Part shown: in pieces, positions 6,656 through 44,575 of the stretch
How positions within the stretch are numbered: the first letter of the stretch is position 1
How the letters are laid out: every line of letters begins with the position of its first letter
Assembly: GCA_903789415.1 (NCBI GenBank)
Contig: CAIFEG010000009.1
Span: 1-60,312 of the forward strand
Reading direction: 5' to 3'
Length of the DNA: 60,312 nt
Source: an uncultured Eggerthellaceae bacterium
GTDB lineage: Bacteria > Actinomycetota > Coriobacteriia > Coriobacteriales > Eggerthellaceae
The notes under the pieces: model-generated
The model's input: the letters and a program-made list of their open reading frames with translations, nothing else
What the model was told of the DNA's origin: nothing
Databases searched by the model: none
Program-made: the position numbers and the translations under genes

Positions 6656-9178
6656 ATGGCAACAACTATTGCGCTTGTAGGTAACCCGAATTCTGGTAAA
6701 ACAACGCTGTTTAACCAGTTGACGGGTAATCATCAGTACGTGGGTAACTGGCCTGGAGTTACCGTCGAGAGAAAGACCGGCCTGCTTAAGGCCGACCACG
6801 ATGTGGAGATTGTCGATCTTCCAGGCATTTATTCACTTTCCCCATATTCCAACGAAGAGGTTATTGCGCGTAATTATCTTTCCGAGCGCGAGGCAACGGT
6901 AATTCTTGATATCGTCGATGCCTCCAACCTCGAGCGTAACCTCTACTTAACCACGCAGCTTATGGAGTTCGGTATTCCGGTTGTCATAGCGCTCAACCAG
7001 ATGGATATCGTCAAAAAACGTGGATACAAAATTAAATCTGAGGCGCTCTCTCAAGATTTAGGGCTTCCCGTCGTCGAGATATCGGCGCTTCGTGGTGATG
7101 GTATCGAAGATGTTGTCGCCGAATCAATTAAAGCTTCAAATAAGGGCATTGCTCCTACGCCAGTGCGCTTTTCTCAGGAGCTTGAATCGTATCTTTCCAC
7201 CATCGAAGAGCACTTGCCTGAGAGTGTTCCTGAACAGCTGAGACGCTTTGAAACCATCAAGATTTTCGAACGCGACAAGATGGTTTCTAAAGACATTACT
7301 TCTTCTTTTGATTTTAATGAGGTCGTTATCGCCGCGGAGTCTGAGTTTGATGACAACTCAGATGCGATTATCACCAATGCGCGCTATAAGTACATCACGG
7401 ATATTATGCCGGATATTCAAAGGCGCACACTGAGTGGTCTGAGCACCACCGAAAAGATTGACCGCGTTCTCACCAATCGCATACTCGCGATTCCAATTTT
7501 CGTAGTTATTATCACCCTTGTTTACTTCATATCTATTTCCACGGTTGGTACCTACTTTACCGATTGGGTAAACGATGGCGTGTTCGGCGATGGCTGGTTT
7601 GTTGCCTCGCAGGGACGTGTCGCTTACGATGCTGCCTCCGATGACTACACCACCGCTACGAACGACATTTCCGCATTTTTGACTGCGGCAGAAGACAACG
7701 ATGTCGATCCTGACGATGCCGAGACACTTGCGACGTATATCGGATCTGACGCCGAAGATGATGCTGATACTGATTCCTCGGAGTACACCACCGCGCTTGC
7801 AAACTTTGAGGCTGCGGCGAGTCAAGCAGACATTACGGGCGAAACGCACGCAGTTGACCAGGACACGGGTGAAATCGATGAACACTCGGTCTCCTATGAC
7901 GACTTCCTCGCAGCGCTTGATGTTGAAGAGCCCGATCCTTCGGATTACGGACCCTGGGTTCCTGGTATTCCCGTTCTAACCGCAGCTGGACTTGCAGCTA
8001 TTGATGCGCCTGCGTGGCTTACCGACCTCGTGCAAAATGGTATTATCGCCGGTGTCGGCGCCGTCCTTGGTTTCGTACCTCAGATTATGGTGTTGTTCTT
8101 CTTACTTGCTATTCTCGAGGGTACCGGTTACATGGCGCGTGTCACCTTTATCCTTGACCGCATCTTCAGGCGGTTTGGACTGTCCGGTAAGACCTTCATT
8201 CCTATGCTCGTTTCAACGGGTTGTGGAGTGCCAGGTGTTATGTCCACGCGTACCATCGAGTCTGAGTCCGCGCGTCACCTCACAATCATGACGACGACAT
8301 TCATGCCTTGTTCGGCAAAGTTGCCAATTATCGCTCTGATTTCCACGGCCTTCTTTGGCGGTGCCTGGTGGGTTGCACCGAGCGCCTACTTCCTAGGAAT
8401 CGCTTCCATCATCGTTTCCGGCATCATGCTGAAAAAGACCCGACCGTTCCTCGGCGAAGAGACACCGTACATTATGGAGCTTCCGGAATATCGCTTGCCG
8501 CGTTTCGTCGATTTGCTGCGCAGCATGTGGGAACGTGCGTGGGCTTTTATTAGAAAAGCTGGCACAATCATCTTGCTTGCTACGATCTTGGTCTGGTATC
8601 TATCGAATTACGGTATCGAAAATGGTAGCTATACGGCTGTTCAAAATATGGACAGCTCCTTCCTGGCAGCCTTCGGTAACGCGATCTGCTGGATCTTTGC
8701 ACCAATTGGTCTGGGCAACTGGGAATGCGCCTCTGCTATTACGACGGGCCTCATGGCCAAGGAAAACCTCGTCGGAACTATGGCCGTTCTATACTCGACC
8801 AACCCGGATGTTGCATGGACCACGACCTTCTTGCAGAGCCTTAATTCGCTCACGATGGGCTATGGTTACTGTGCTGCGTTCTCCTATCTTGTTTTCAACT
8901 TGCTGTGTGCGCCGTGCATTGCCGCGATGGGCGCCATCAAACGCGAGATGGGTGGTTTCAATAAATGGTTCGCAGCCGCCATCGGTTACGAGATGACCTT
9001 TGCGTGGTGTGTCGCACTGATGTTCTTCCAGTTCAGCAAGGTTGCTGCAGGCGGTCCTGTTGATATGTGGTTCATCCTGGCTATCATTGTTGCAGCAGTC
9101 ATGCTGTTCATGCTCTTCCGTCCGTATCCGAAACAGCAGCAAAACCTCGGCGTTTCTTCCGCATCTGCCGCTGCGTAG
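6656..9178 (+). CDS. feoB: Ferrous iron transporter FeoB with enlarged extracytoplasmic loop
   Basis: FeoB is the GTP-gated Fe(II) permease in the cytoplasmic membrane. The G domain shows G1 GNPNSGKTT (residues 9-17), G3 DLPG (54-57) and G4 NQMD (114-117). The first membrane span is near residue 275. It is followed by an unusual Asp/Glu/Thr-rich loop to about residue 455, where most FeoB proteins have a few dozen residues. The gate regions follow, with the conserved cysteine motif GCGVPGVMSTRT in place of the common GCNVPAIMATRT. The 840-aa length exceeds the usual 650-770 because of the loop. A GGGGAGAG site precedes the ATG. Confidence 0.97.
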   Translation: MATTIALVGNPNSGKTTLFNQLTGNHQYVGNWPGVTVERKTGLLKADHDVEIVDLPGIYSLSPYSNEEVIARNYLSEREATVILDIVDASNLERNLYLTTQLMEFGIPVVIALNQMDIVKKRGYKIKSEALSQDLGLPVVEISALRGDGIEDVVAESIKASNKGIAPTPVRFSQELESYLSTIEEHLPESVPEQLRRFETIKIFERDKMVSKDITSSFDFNEVVIAAESEFDDNSDAIITNARYKYITDIMPDIQRRTLSGLSTTEKIDRVLTNRILAIPIFVVIITLVYFISISTVGTYFTDWVNDGVFGDGWFVASQGRVAYDAASDDYTTATNDISAFLTAAEDNDVDPDDAETLATYIGSDAEDDADTDSSEYTTALANFEAAASQADITGETHAVDQDTGEIDEHSVSYDDFLAALDVEEPDPSDYGPWVPGIPVLTAAGLAAIDAPAWLTDLVQNGIIAGVGAVLGFVPQIMVLFFLLAILEGTGYMARVTFILDRIFRRFGLSGKTFIPMLVSTGCGVPGVMSTRTIESESARHLTIMTTTFMPCSAKLPIIALISTAFFGGAWWVAPSAYFLGIASIIVSGIMLKKTRPFLGEETPYIMELPEYRLPRFVDLLRSMWERAWAFIRKAGTIILLATILVWYLSNYGIENGSYTAVQNMDSSFLAAFGNAICWIFAPIGLGNWECASAITTGLMAKENLVGTMAVLYSTNPDVAWTTTFLQSLNSLTMGYGYCAAFSYLVFNLLCAPCIAAMGAIKREMGGFNKWFAAAIGYEMTFAWCVALMFFQFSKVAAGGPVDMWFILAIIVAAVMLFMLFRPYPKQQQNLGVSSASAAA

Positions 9179-9183
9179 GGCTA

Positions 9184-9225
9184 AGAGCTCAGAGCTCAGA
9201 GCTAAGAGCTCAGAGCTCAGAGCTA
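9184..9225 (+). repeat. Perfect heptamer repeat just after feoB
   Basis: Six 7-base units stand in a row in the order AGAGCTC, AGAGCTC, AGAGCTA, twice over, so the 21-base block is exactly duplicated. The array starts five bases after the feoB stop and ends before the terminator hairpin. It lies outside the reading frame, so a change in copy number would not alter FeoB unless the stop is read through. Confidence 0.9.
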
Positions 9226-9250
9226 AATTAGACTCAGAGCCAGAGTTTTA

Positions 9251-15608: not shown

Positions 15609-17992
<2,384 letters not shown>

Positions 17993-18317: not shown

Positions 18318-21300
18318 ATGGCAAAAAAGACCCAAGAAGAAGAGCAACTGTCGTCTTTTGCGGATACGAAAAAAAGTGATACGCATAAACATCACAAAAT
18401 GGCGGGCAATGTACGCCGCAATATGTGGCTTTTAATTGTCACAACTGTTTTAGTAATTGGTTCAATTTTTATGTTCACTCCTCTTCAGGAGCGAATTCAT
18501 CAAGGTCTTGACCTCCAAGGTGGCCTTTCAGTTGTCTTAACTGCACAGAGTACCGACGGCGGAGACGTGTCGAATGACGACATGAACGAAAGCCGAAGCA
18601 TTATCGAATCTCGTGTCAATGCGCTGGGTGCATCCGAGGCCTCAGTTCAGCGCCAAGGTAACAACCAAATTTTGGTTCAGATTCCTGGTATGTCTGACAC
18701 TTCTGAGGCGTTGCGCACGATTGGCCGTACTGGTCAGTTGGAGTTTGCGCGCTTGGATTCATTTACCGATTCCACGATTCGCCAAGAGATTGACTCAGGT
18801 CAGCTTACTCAAAGCTCTACCATTACCGATGATTTTGGAAATACCTTCCGAACTGGTGATGAGACTCCGATAACGGTAGAACCCGGTACGTACACGCCTA
18901 TTATTACTGGTGCCAATATTCGTAGTGTCAATGTTGATCGTGAAAATGGGTCGGGCGTCCACTATGCCGTAAACATCACGCTTGATGACGCAGGTCGCCA
19001 GGCGTTTGCCGATGCAAGTCGCGATTTAGTTGGCGATCATGGCAAGATCGTCATCATCTTGGACAACCAGGTCCAATCTGCTCCTGCAGTTCAATCGGTT
19101 ATCGATGGCGGAGAAGTTTCCATTACGGGCAACTATACCCAGCAAGAAGCAAACGACTTAAAAACCGTTCTTGATTCTGGCGCACTTCCGGTAAGCTTCC
19201 AGGTTCAGTCGGCAAGCACCGTTGGACCGACCTTGGGACAAGGTGCTCTGCAGTCAGGTGTACTCGTCGCGGGCATTGGTCTGCTGTTGGTCATGCTCTA
19301 CCTGCTGCTGTTCTACCGCGGCCTGGGCTTCCTGACGGCAGGTGCAATGGCGGTCTTTGCAGTGATGTATTTAGGGCTGCTGGCGCTTCTTTCTCATTTC
19401 AACCAATTCAGCCTTTCACTTGCAGGTATCGCCGGTATCGTATTGACCATTGGTATGGCCGCCGACTCTTCCATCCTTACGCTTGAACGATTTAGGGAAG
19501 AGATACGTTTCGGGCGAAGTGTGCGTGCAGCATCTATCACCGGTGTCCGTCATGGCATTATGACGTCAATTGACGCCGACTTGGTTACCCTGGTTTCCGC
19601 ATTGACCTTGTTCTTCTTGGGATCAAGCTCGGTCAAAGGCTTCGGTCTGACCTTGGCACTTGGTATTGGATGCGACATCGCAATGATGCTGCTGTTCAAA
19701 GCACCGACCATTCGACTTTTGGCGCCGCACTCCATTGCGCATCACCCAGGATTCTGGGGTATTAAGGATTGTGAGACAGCATCCGAGGTGTATACCGAAC
19801 TGGCACACCGCGAAGATATCCCGGTTGAGCGCGCCGTTTCGTATGAGGCAATTAACTCGAAAGAGAATAAGCTCAATGCAACGCGCCGTGCAGGTGAAGC
19901 GGGCGCAAAGGCTGCCGATGCGGCAAGTAACCTTAAAGGTCGCTTCATTAAGCACGACATTAAATTCTTGAAGTATCGCAAATTCTTCCTCACGCTTGCC
20001 GCATGTGTGGTGGTTTTCTTCTGTGTTGTCATTGGTGTTCGTGGTATCAATTTAGGTATCGAATTTGTTGGCGGTACCTCAATCGAATTTGACAACACGG
20101 GCTCGCTTACCACAGATCAATTACGTCAAGAACTTGACGCGCAGGGTCAACCGAATGCCGTCATTCAAACGGTTGATAATAACGGCGAAGCAGGATTTAT
20201 TGTCCGCACTTCCGAGACCGATGCTGCCAATGCATCCGCACTAGCAACCCAAGTAAGCAGCGATTTGAACTTAGCAAATAATAGCTTCCAGGTTTCTACT
20301 ATTGGACCTGACTGGGGCACGAGTATCATTCACTCCATGGTGCTTGCACTCGCGGTTTCATTCCTGCTGATCATTATTTACATAGCGATTCGCTTTGAAT
20401 ACAAGATGGGCATTACCGCTATCATTGCGTTGTGCCACGATATTATCTTGGTGTTAGGCATCTATGCCCTGCTCGGCCGTGAGCTCACGCCAAACACCGT
20501 TGCAGCACTGCTTACGATCTTGGGTTATTCACTCTACGATACCGTCGTTGTCTTCCACCGTATTACGGATAACTTGCAGCACTTGCACGTGAAATGCACG
20601 TTCATGACTATGGCAAATCACTCGATGAACCAGGTGTTTATCCGCTCTATTAACACAACGCTTAGTTCAATCATTCCTGTCGCGGCGATGATGATATTCG
20701 GAAGCCAAACGTTGCAAGACTTCGCATTCGCTATGACCATCGGTTTGATTTCTGGTGCATATTCCTCTATCGCGATTGCGTGCCCACTGTATGCTCTGTG
20801 GAAACAGCGCGAGCCGAAATACAAGAAGCTCGTAAAGAAATACGGCAATGAAGTAGGTGTTCTTGAGTTGGTCAAAAAGACCGCAACGGCCCAGGCAAAC
20901 GAAGAAGCTGCAGAAAAAGCTTCTGCAGGTGCATCTACTGGTACCGCAACGCAAACTCCGGGTGCCGTTTCGAATTTGCAGGAAGCTTCGGCAAACAGTA
21001 CTTCAAAGGGGAAGAAGGGCGGCTCAGCGCACGTTGAAGGTGCAGTACTTACCAACAATGGACAGCTAACCGTGGTTGTCGATGCCCCAAAGACGGGAGC
21101 GCAGCTCGCAAAGGAAAAACGCGCGAAGGAACGCAAAGAACAGTCACGCAGCAAAGCTGAAGAAAAGAAGAAAGAAGCTGCAAAAGAGGAAGCGAATACG
21201 ATTTCTGCGGGTGTACCTGGTGTGCGCTATGTTGAAGGTTCTCAAAGTGCAAAAGAGGCCGAAGAGAACAAGCAACAAGCAAAACAAAAGGAAGCAGAAA

Positions 21301-21401
21301 AGAAAAACTCAAGTAAACAGAATTCCTCGAAGAAAGCTGATCAAAAGAGCGGCTATAACGGAGCGAAACGTCTTCGCAGGCAGCATCGAAACCAGAAATA
21401 A
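18318..21401 (+). CDS. secDF: Fused protein translocase subunit SecDF
   Basis: SecDF is the membrane RND-type motor that pulls proteins through SecYEG by the proton gradient. SecD comes first: a span near residue 45, the DLQGGLSVVL motif, the large extracytoplasmic domain and five spans (YLLLFYRGLGF onward). SecF follows, with YRKFFLTLAACVV and the GIEFVGGTSIEF motif, and five more spans. A Lys/Glu/Ala-rich tail of about 150 residues is added, longer than in most SecF proteins. The chosen ATG has a GGAG site; the open frame upstream has no good start. yajC is absent here. Confidence 0.95.
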   Translation: MAKKTQEEEQLSSFADTKKSDTHKHHKMAGNVRRNMWLLIVTTVLVIGSIFMFTPLQERIHQGLDLQGGLSVVLTAQSTDGGDVSNDDMNESRSIIESRVNALGASEASVQRQGNNQILVQIPGMSDTSEALRTIGRTGQLEFARLDSFTDSTIRQEIDSGQLTQSSTITDDFGNTFRTGDETPITVEPGTYTPIITGANIRSVNVDRENGSGVHYAVNITLDDAGRQAFADASRDLVGDHGKIVIILDNQVQSAPAVQSVIDGGEVSITGNYTQQEANDLKTVLDSGALPVSFQVQSASTVGPTLGQGALQSGVLVAGIGLLLVMLYLLLFYRGLGFLTAGAMAVFAVMYLGLLALLSHFNQFSLSLAGIAGIVLTIGMAADSSILTLERFREEIRFGRSVRAASITGVRHGIMTSIDADLVTLVSALTLFFLGSSSVKGFGLTLALGIGCDIAMMLLFKAPTIRLLAPHSIAHHPGFWGIKDCETASEVYTELAHREDIPVERAVSYEAINSKENKLNATRRAGEAGAKAADAASNLKGRFIKHDIKFLKYRKFFLTLAACVVVFFCVVIGVRGINLGIEFVGGTSIEFDNTGSLTTDQLRQELDAQGQPNAVIQTVDNNGEAGFIVRTSETDAANASALATQVSSDLNLANNSFQVSTIGPDWGTSIIHSMVLALAVSFLLIIIYIAIRFEYKMGITAIIALCHDIILVLGIYALLGRELTPNTVAALLTILGYSLYDTVVVFHRITDNLQHLHVKCTFMTMANHSMNQVFIRSINTTLSSIIPVAAMMIFGSQTLQDFAFAMTIGLISGAYSSIAIACPLYALWKQREPKYKKLVKKYGNEVGVLELVKKTATAQANEEAAEKASAGASTGTATQTPGAVSNLQEASANSTSKGKKGGSAHVEGAVLTNNGQLTVVVDAPKTGAQLAKEKRAKERKEQSRSKAEEKKKEAAKEEANTISAGVPGVRYVEGSQSAKEAEENKQQAKQKEAEKKNSSKQNSSKKADQKSGYNGAKRLRRQHRNQK

Positions 21402-33436: not shown

Positions 33437-34381
33437 ATGCTCAATTCGCTCTATCAACAGCTTAATCCCATCGCCTTTTCCATCGGGCCTTTCACAGTTC
33501 GTTGGTATGGGATTGCCTATGTGCTGGGGTTTATTTTTGCGGCGTTGGTCATTTGGAAGACGGCGAAGCGCTGGAAGATAAAATTTGATTCCGATGCGTT
33601 AATGACGGTTATTTTGTGCGTGATCATCGGGGTCATTGTGGGCGCGCGTCTTGGATACGTACTGTTCTACGGCGCAGGATATTATCTGATCCACCCCGAA
33701 GAAATTTTCATGATTTCAAATGGGGGAATGAGCTTTCACGGAGGGCTTTGTGGTGCACTCATCGCTGGAATTGTTGCATCAAAAATCTGCCATATGCCAT
33801 TTGGAACGCTTGCAGATTTGGGCGCGATCGCGGCTCCTATCGGGTTATTCTTCGGACGCTGTGCAAATTTCATCAATGGAGAGCTGTGGGGCGCGCCAAC
33901 CGATCTTCCATGGGGCGTGGTGTTTGGCGGTGCTGCAGGAAATTTCCCTCGTCATCCGTCGCAGCTCTATGAAGCAATTCTTGAAGGGGTTGTCATCTTT
34001 GTGGTGCTGTTTGCCTTGTCAAGAAAGAATAATCCGCCACGCCCACGGGGGACCTTCTTTGGGGTCTTTTTAGTGATGTATGGAACGTTCCGTTTCTTGA
34101 TCGAATTTGTGCGTCAACCCGATGCGCAGCTGGGATATCTATGGGGTGGCTGGCTTACTATGGGTCAAGTTCTGTCGGTTCCGCTGGTCATCATTGGTAT
34201 CTTGGTACTGTTGTGGGCGGCGCGAAAACGCCTGCCGCAAATGGGAGTGGCCGTCGTTAATAAGGACGATACCGATAAAGATAATGCCGGCAAAGATAAT
34301 GCCGACAAAGGAAGCATCGCTCAAGGTAACGTCGATAAAAAAGAGACGGATACAAACGCTCATAGCGATTCACAACAATGA
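33437..34381 (+). CDS. lgt: Prolipoprotein diacylglyceryl transferase Lgt with repeat tail
   Basis: Lgt adds diacylglycerol from phosphatidylglycerol to the lipobox cysteine of prolipoproteins in the membrane. Seven spans are visible. The family motifs are HGGLCGALIAG and the GRCANFINGELWGAPTDLPWGVVF stretch, then HPSQLYEA. The first Arg contact is in VGARLGYVLFY. Length is 314 aa. The last ~45 residues are a 5-residue repeat (DKDNA, GKDNA, DKGSI and so on), encoded by seven 15-base units, and are not part of the Lgt fold. Confidence 0.95.
   Translation: MLNSLYQQLNPIAFSIGPFTVRWYGIAYVLGFIFAALVIWKTAKRWKIKFDSDALMTVILCVIIGVIVGARLGYVLFYGAGYYLIHPEEIFMISNGGMSFHGGLCGALIAGIVASKICHMPFGTLADLGAIAAPIGLFFGRCANFINGELWGAPTDLPWGVVFGGAAGNFPRHPSQLYEAILEGVVIFVVLFALSRKNNPPRPRGTFFGVFLVMYGTFRFLIEFVRQPDAQLGYLWGGWLTMGQVLSVPLVIIGILVLLWAARKRLPQMGVAVVNKDDTDKDNAGKDNADKGSIAQGNVDKKETDTNAHSDSQQ
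34259..34363 (+). repeat. Seven 15-base repeats in the lgt 3' end
   Basis: In-frame units such as GATAAAGATAATGCC and GGCAAAGATAATGCC run to near the stop. They encode the pentads NKDDT, DKDNA, GKDNA, DKGSI, AQGNV, DKKET and DTNAH, so the units drift but keep the 15-base period. Confidence 0.85.
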
Positions 34382-34398
34382 TTTCGCAGCGCAATTGA

Positions 34399-35901
34399 AT
34401 GAGGTTTGTGAAGGCTATGGCAAGAAAGCAACACGTATATCAGGAGCGCAGTCAGCAGAGGCACAATTCGCATGTCCGCGCTCCGCAGGAACACAATCAA
34501 CAGGTGCGCGCAAAGAAGAAAACCCGCAATGCGCGTATGCAGGATCAGTCCGCGCGTCGCACGACTCAAAGCAGAATGACTCATCGAATTGAGGGGTCAG
34601 CAATTGCGGTGATCGGTGGTGGTGCCGCGGGGCTGATGGCGGCCGTTGTGGCGTCAGGGGCACTTGAAGTTCGGCAGGACGGACCTGCGCTCCCAAGTTC
34701 GGATGCGCATTATCGCCAGGTAACTCTATATGAAGCCCAGAACAGAACGGGTAAACCCATTCTTGTTACCGGTGCGGGGCGGTGCAATATTACCAATGCG
34801 CAAGTCTCGCCGTCGGCATACCGAAACGACGCCTTTGTTGCGCAGGCGTTTTCGAAGTGCCCGCCTTCGCAGGTAATGGATGCGTTTTCGCTCCTTGGAC
34901 TTGCCATCTACGAAGAGGACGAAGGCAGATGTTACCCGGTTACCAATCGTGCAACGACGGTGGTTGATGTTCTGCGCGCTGCCATGTTGCGCGCCGGGGT
35001 TGAGGAGCAATGTCATCGTCGCGTTGAAGCTCTTGAACATACGCCCGAAGGTTGGTACGTGTGCATGCCTGATGGGAAAGAAGGGCCATATGCGGCGGTT
35101 GTCATCGCTACGGGAGGTAAACCTGCAGCCCATATTCTTCCTGATGATGTGCCGTGTACGCCGTTGCAACCAGTCTTGGCTCCGCTGAAAATTCAGGGGG
35201 TGAACCTGCGACCCGTCAATCGTATGCGGGCGCGGTGCATTCTTTCGTATAAGGAGCACAGTGAAGTCGGTGAAGCGATGTTTCGCTCTGACGGCATCTC
35301 GGGAATTGCCGCGTTTAACATATCGCGCATGGTGAGCCCGGGCGATGCGATCGTACTCAACTTAACACCGGATGCTCAGGCGACTTCGGATGGTCAGGGG
35401 GAAACCTTCTTCGCCCGTCGTGCCGAACAAATTCATCCGCACACATGGGAAGACATGTGTCGGGGACTTTTCCTCCCTCGCGTAGGGCAAATCATACTTT
35501 CCTATGCGGGTCTTTCGGAACGTGATGCATTCGACCGCGACCGCCTTCCCGCTTTTGTGCATGCGGCCACTCATATGGAGCTTACGGTGGAAGGAATCGC
35601 CGATCCTGGTCGCGCTCAGGTGCATCGGGGCGGGGTTGATGTTTCGGCGATCGATCCGCACACGATGGAGCTTCGCCAGTATCCGGGACTTTTTGTGGCA
35701 GGAGAGGGTGTCGACGTCGATGGTCCCTGCGGAGGGTACAACTTGCACTGGGCGTGGGCATCGGGGCTGCTGGCGGGTGCGGCTGCGGCGCAGAAGCTCA
35801 ACCAGCAGAAACTCGCGCAACGAAAAATCGCAAAACAAAAACTCGCAAGGCAGAAACTCGCGCAACAAAAACCTGCACAACAGAAGGATGATCTGCAATG
35901 A
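34399..35901 (+). CDS. HI0933/BaiN-like FAD-dependent oxidoreductase
   Basis: This flavoprotein belongs to the HI0933 (aminoacetone oxidase/BaiN-like) family. The Rossmann motif IAVIGGGAAGLMAA is near residue 70, and the family hallmark PILVTGAGRCNITNA follows. The C-terminal FAD part GLFVAGEGVDVDGPCGGYNLHWAWASG is also present. The physiological substrate is unknown. The first ~58 residues are basic, Gln/Arg-rich and overlie a 15-base repeat, so a later start (MTHRIEGSAI, 34573) is possible. The C-terminus is a QKLAQ pentad repeat. Its stop overlaps the next gene by four bases. Confidence 0.85.
   Translation: MRFVKAMARKQHVYQERSQQRHNSHVRAPQEHNQQVRAKKKTRNARMQDQSARRTTQSRMTHRIEGSAIAVIGGGAAGLMAAVVASGALEVRQDGPALPSSDAHYRQVTLYEAQNRTGKPILVTGAGRCNITNAQVSPSAYRNDAFVAQAFSKCPPSQVMDAFSLLGLAIYEEDEGRCYPVTNRATTVVDVLRAAMLRAGVEEQCHRRVEALEHTPEGWYVCMPDGKEGPYAAVVIATGGKPAAHILPDDVPCTPLQPVLAPLKIQGVNLRPVNRMRARCILSYKEHSEVGEAMFRSDGISGIAAFNISRMVSPGDAIVLNLTPDAQATSDGQGETFFARRAEQIHPHTWEDMCRGLFLPRVGQIILSYAGLSERDAFDRDRLPAFVHAATHMELTVEGIADPGRAQVHRGGVDVSAIDPHTMELRQYPGLFVAGEGVDVDGPCGGYNLHWAWASGLLAGAAAAQKLNQQKLAQRKIAKQKLARQKLAQQKPAQQKDDLQ
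34443..34517 (+). repeat. Five 15-base repeats between lgt and the flavoprotein core
   Basis: Units GGAGCGCAGTCAGCA, GAGGCACAATTCGCA, TGTCCGCGCTCCGCA, GGAACACAATCAACA and GGTGCGCGCAAAGAA share a GGAgCaCAaTC-gCA pattern. They lie in the N-terminal extension of the flavoprotein, or in its leader if the start is later. Confidence 0.55.
35791..35895 (+). repeat. Seven 15-base repeats at the 3' end of the flavoprotein gene
   Basis: Units such as CAGAAACTCGCGCAA and CAAAAACTCGCAAGG encode QKLAQ, QKLAR, RKIAK and QKPAQ pentads. The array ends two codons before the stop. The unit differs from that in lgt 1.5 kb away although the period is the same. Confidence 0.9.
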
Positions 35902-44435: not shown

Positions 44436-44500
44436 GAAAATAATGGGGCGTAAACACACGAAAGCGATCACAATAAGGGTACTATTATTGAGGAAGTTTC

Positions 44501-44575
44501 AAGACAATTAGCTACGAAATAATGAGCTACAAGACAATTGGCTATACGGCAATTAGCTGCAGAACAATGTTTGAG
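44501..44575 (+). repeat. Five 15-base repeats in the rpiB leader
   Basis: Units AAGACAATTAGCTAC, GAAATAATGAGCTAC, AAGACAATTGGCTAT, ACGGCAATTAGCTGC and AGAACAATGTTTGAG follow without gaps. The array fills the space from 65 bases after glpK up to the rpiB ribosome site. Confidence 0.88.

Follow-up and report, generated by a model that had tools for sequence, protein, structure and literature searches.

Why should two unlike sets of 15-bp direct repeats lie on either side of a single stop codon, that of lgt? The locus lies in a window of 60,312 nucleotides (the whole stretch of DNA analysed), which is contig 9 of a 1.88-Mb genome (G000) and whose nearest matches are all Eggerthellaceae; G000 is the sole representative of its genus in our comparison. 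A flavoprotein gene comes directly after lgt, with a frame that is open from ATG 34399 to 35901 (Table 1). No match to the lgt-flavoprotein locus was found in plasmid records. A sequence-only reading of the region had described seven 15-base units in the lgt tail and, about 80 bases later, five others filling the space before the flavoprotein core. We tested the periodicity of each array by comparing lag identity with that of codon shuffles. Gene calls were home-made.

Table 1. Coordinates of the genes and repeat arrays discussed (positions in the window, unless a contig is given)
Feature	Position	Strand	Evidence or remark
lgt, prolipoprotein diacylglyceryl transferase, 314 aa	33437..34381	+	PF01790 and TIGR00544 profiles
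Array 1, charged lgt C-terminal tail, decaying 15-bp DKDNA-type units	34259..34378	+	lag-15 p 2e-4; pLDDT 46-58; none in 29 relatives
Best-preserved core of array 1, 2.6 copies of CCGACAAAGATAATG	34272..34310	+	TRF score 64
Array 2, degenerate 15/30/45-bp periodic stretch, QERSQ QRHNS HVRAP QEHNQ QVRAK	34429..34518	+	lag-15 p 0.002
Flavoprotein, HI0933/TIGR00275 (aminoacetone oxidase family FAD-binding) kind	34417..35901	+	TIGR00275, PF03486; SD at 34417
Array 3, flavoprotein C-terminal tail, six 15-bp units (LAQQK type)	35797..35886	+	TRF score 65, 4.3 copies
7/21-bp array right after the stop of ORF 6656-9178	9180..9226	.	genome-wide class example
21-bp array, 4.4 copies, last about 33 codons of ORF 15609-16850	16749..16840	+	genome-wide class example
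23-bp array, after or near a gene 3' end or between genes	21277-21322		TRF
15-bp array, 3.9 copies, between two genes	44500..44558	.	genome-wide class example
CRISPR-like loci, G000	C4:19-1016 (L114); C11:50450-51322 (L221); C17:49-1474 (L126); C40:9413-9578 (L179)		

The C-terminal tail of Lgt

The conserved enzyme reaches about residue 265-275 of Lgt. PF01790 matches residues 11-260 (240 positions, E = 1e-76, 257.8 bits), covering the whole enzyme, and TIGR00544 matches residues 5-265 (244.3 bits, against a cut-off of 118.9). The tail (271-314) is outside the conserved family, and no family profile covers it. Among 29 relatives, Lgt is 271-324 aa long (median 277) and ends soon after a common LPQxGLPE-like motif. 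Two of these proteins, in G001 (309 aa in total) and G009 (324 aa), end in longer private tails, in which 15-bp periodicity is not raised. AlphaFold, run with 31 sequences, gave pLDDT block means of 46-58 for the last 44 residues, compared to about 90 for most of the core, and the tail is thus predicted to be disordered. These data agree with the earlier placement of the tail beyond the conserved enzyme. A tail shared with relatives had been named as the finding that would speak against this placement; the DKDNA tail is private, occurring in 0 of the 29 related proteins, and its sequence and length are common to none. We infer, as had also been proposed, that the tail is dispensable.

Seven pentads can be read in frame from 34259 to 34363 (NKDDT DKDNA GKDNA DKGSI AQGNV DKKET DTNAH), followed by SDSQQ and the stop codon. 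All seven are in register, as described, but the array is less regular than the description implied. Near-identity is confined to units 2 and 3 (13/15); the rest of the first six share 8-10 of 15 positions with the DKDNA unit and unit 7 shares 7 of 15, recognizable likeness being limited to about the first five (to six) units. Over all seven, lag-15 identity is 0.59, versus 0.38 on average after codon shuffling (sd 0.047, p = 2e-4); the P value becomes 0.002 when any lag is allowed. For the last five units by themselves, lag-15 identity is not significant (p = 0.09).

A precedent for private Lgt tails comes from M. tuberculosis, whose Lgt protein carries a large C-terminal extension with no homologue among known proteins (PMC13251419). 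Both that extension (PRK13108 / NF009611) and the present tail are actinobacterial, non-conserved and located after the last transmembrane helix. They differ in that the extension here is about 42 aa, derived from repeats and without sequence match to the mycobacterial one. When NF009611 was compared with Lgt, the match ended at profile position 277 of 476 (residue 264) and fell far under the cut-off. No match to the pentapeptide repeat profile PF00805 (A(D/N)LxX solenoid) was found in Lgt or in the flavoprotein.

Arrays at both ends of the flavoprotein frame

The flavoprotein matches TIGR00275 over residues 69-460 (E = 2e-69, 234.2 bits, cut-off 183.8) and also PF03486 (E = 4e-51), and it contains the FAD-binding GGGxAG motif (VIGGGAAGLMA). 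Its conserved core spans about residues 67-470, numbering from 34399, with both terminal extensions outside.

Array 2 contains five 15-bp blocks (34443-34517), in line with the count given earlier, and its lag-15 identity is 0.50, versus 0.33 for codon-shuffled sequence (p = 0.002). The blocks are degenerate, however, with mutual matches of 6-11/15; lags of 30 and 45 give higher identities (0.62 and 0.60) than lag 15, and TRF does not report the array even at score 30. Its position ahead of the flavoprotein core was correctly noted, but rather than merely filling space it more likely forms part of a translated N-terminal extension (34417-34575), as it sits within the open flavoprotein frame. 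Two start codons come into question here, ATG 34417 and ATG 34576, the latter having been given as 34573. A weak Shine-Dalgarno sequence, GAGGT at spacing 11, precedes ATG 34417, compared to a match of only 3 bases for ATG 34576, and the frame has no stop from 34399 onward. If translation began at ATG 34576, array 2 would be an untranslated repeat in the leader. Such a start would mirror that of related flavoproteins, which begin a few residues ahead of the FAD motif and lack the N-terminal extension; moreover, the codon score over 34417-34575 is only 4.4 in the flavoprotein frame, under the 8.2 of another open frame. We nevertheless regard an untranslated array as unlikely, given the comparison of Shine-Dalgarno matches and the stop-free frame, and given that the gene would then sit about 195 bp past the lgt stop with no promoter-like site between. 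ATG 34417 is favoured as the start with moderate confidence, and array 2 is probably translated from it, within a private N-terminal extension.

A third array, missed by the sequence-only reading, occupies the C-terminal tail of the flavoprotein. Its six units (LNQQK LAQRK IAKQK LARQK LAQQK PAQQK) yield a lag-15 identity of 0.68, versus 0.36 for codon-shuffled sequence (p = 2e-4), making it the clearest of the three. Related flavoproteins have C-terminal ends that are mostly short and dissimilar. Read in this frame, the flavoprotein has periodic basic/glutamine-rich arms at both ends (arrays 2 and 3).

The three arrays are mutually unrelated, and each occurs only once in the genome. The gap of about 80 bases between arrays 1 and 2 holds, as does their reported lack of resemblance, the best cross-match in any rotation being 10/15. 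Adjacent direct copies, as expected of minisatellite-type repeats, exceed chance in each case (p = 2e-4 for arrays 1 and 3, p = 0.002 for array 2). A mobile or dispersed repeat is ruled out by the uniqueness of each array, and CRISPR is ruled out for arrays 1-3 by the lack of spacers.

Short tandem repeats across the genome

The two arrays had been viewed as a local oddity. Array 3 lies in the same operon and the window contains further arrays, which, like the first two, form part of a genome-wide set of short tandem repeats. Of the window's 13 arrays, 12 are intergenic or within the last 34 codons of a gene. To quantify this population, we read 1.879 Mb of G000 and counted TRF arrays with a score of at least 40, after removal of redundancy. 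The whole genome holds 440 such arrays (234/Mb), or 88/Mb at a score of at least 60. The corresponding densities are 115/Mb and 45/Mb in G018, the only long control relative (400 kb).

We then considered strict non-coding DNA, defined as having no ORF of at least 80 aa on either strand. Here, G000 contains 132 arrays in 142 kb (929/Mb), compared to 7 in 29.5 kb for G018 (237/Mb; binomial p = 2.5e-5) and 0 in 19 kb for E. coli K-12 (p = 1e-7). Order-2 Markov sequence of the same composition gives 38/Mb. Pooled loci from many Eggerthellaceae genera show 203-292/Mb, and looser masks keep the fourfold contrast. Diverse bacterial loci show 350-600/Mb, such that the excess of G000 over bacteria at large is about 1.5-2.4-fold. 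The excess is spread across the contigs of G000. Thus, non-coding short tandem repeats are about fourfold commoner in G000 than in the sampled Eggerthellaceae. The local arrays are real but ordinary, were partly misdescribed at first, and point to a mildly unusual property of the genome as a whole. A 60-base probe had no match in E. coli, and a literature search on tandem repeats in Eggerthellaceae returned nothing relevant.

Array periods in strict non-coding DNA centre on 13-16 bp, and multiples of three account for 42 of 128 (33%), the chance level. Among wholly coding arrays, the fraction is 141 of 172 (82%). A strict 15-bp mutational period is rejected, since periods of 13, 14, 15 and 16 bp are equally common in strict non-coding DNA; instead, the genome-wide peak at 15 bp is largely a frame filter, no other multiple of three lying as close to the mutational mode. 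Coding arrays are also concentrated in the outer 180 bp of genes (191/Mb, versus 90/Mb inside; p = 8e-7), and no such gene-end bias was seen for coding arrays in G018. Together, frame and position fit length-unspecific duplication plus purifying selection.

Origin of the arrays and of the excess

In our view, the arrays are likely the products of repeated short tandem duplication, filtered by frame, tolerated at protein ends beyond the folded domain, and then subject to decay. Short tandem duplication, most simply through replication slippage, would occur throughout the genome with units mostly of 10-18 bp. Any unit length would survive in non-coding DNA, while inside genes multiples of three would survive best, chiefly at protein ends past the folded domain. 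The Lgt tail and the N- and C-terminal extensions of the flavoprotein would then represent three independent events in one operon, the sequences having later decayed through point mutation. The basis for this reading lies in the periodicity, the absence from relatives, the low predicted order of the Lgt tail, the genome-wide excess, the frame filter and the gene-end bias; slippage as the mechanism, and selective near-neutrality, are what these observations suggest.

Alternatively, the tails could be functional low-complexity segments under selection, with the charged cytoplasmic Lgt tail and the basic Q/K/R-rich flavoprotein arms binding partners, membranes or nucleic acid. In favour of this, the two extensions are in frame and show a strong compositional bias, and a few relatives, such as G001 and G009, have charged Lgt tails. 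Yet selection for function would be hard to reconcile with tails that share neither sequence nor length with any of 29 relatives, that match no family profile and whose units have decayed to 3-10/15 matches, and the repeat excess is greatest in non-coding DNA; we deem this explanation improbable. A regulatory role between lgt and the flavoprotein gene, with the repeats acting as arrays of binding sites in DNA or as RNA structures, is highly improbable. Intergenic direct repeats can regulate, and the TAACTGA repeats of Beggiatoaceae (PMC4679880) are a proposed case, but each array here is unique in the genome, none matches Rfam, promoter- and terminator-like sites are no commoner than in shuffles, and the two main arrays fall within open reading frames.

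Duplication followed by frame filtering and decay would place these arrays close to bacterial minisatellite/VNTR repeats, which likewise have head-to-tail units of 10-30 bp, decay, stay in frame within genes and are common outside conserved domains. Unlike typical members of that class, the arrays here are short (2-7 copies), many are strongly decayed, and their density is about 4 times that of sampled relatives. The Beggiatoaceae repeats resemble them as abundant short direct repeats between genes, but there one motif recurs genome-wide, whereas the arrays examined here each use a different unit. One practical consequence is that neither the Lgt tail nor residues 1-59 of the flavoprotein frame should be taken for domains.

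What, then, accounts for the excess? MutS is absent from all 37 Coriobacteriales-type genomes searched, and NucS had no full-length match in the 37 genomes searched, in agreement with the reported lack of MutS-MutL and NucS throughout the class Coriobacteriia (PMC5290159). This absence takes away one known check on slippage. Mismatch repair mainly handles loops shorter than the units of these arrays. As the same systems are missing from relatives, their absence alone cannot account for the excess, and lineage-specific loss of mismatch repair is rejected as the cause. Loss of RecJ or of the exonuclease VII large subunit (XseA) is rejected as well, both being present. Duplications might arise more often, be lost by deletion less often, or meet weaker selection in non-coding DNA; any of these could produce the excess. 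Tentatively, and with more doubt than confidence, we suggest that tandem duplications of about 10-18 bp arise unusually often in this lineage, atop the loss of both known mismatch-repair systems, and that 15-bp duplications continually give rise to new disordered protein ends. If so, the lineage would be a natural mutator for one class of mutation and a model system for how protein tails originate. A fourfold excess in the absence of MutS-MutL or NucS also lets one ask what limits short tandem duplications without mismatch repair, and opens the question of how non-conserved protein ends arise.

CRISPR-like arrays with two different 36-bp repeats, GTTGAAGATCTGCCTTCTGACTAGCTGATATACTTA and GCTTAATTACCAGCCAAAATGACGCTGCACCAAAAC, are found at contig ends.
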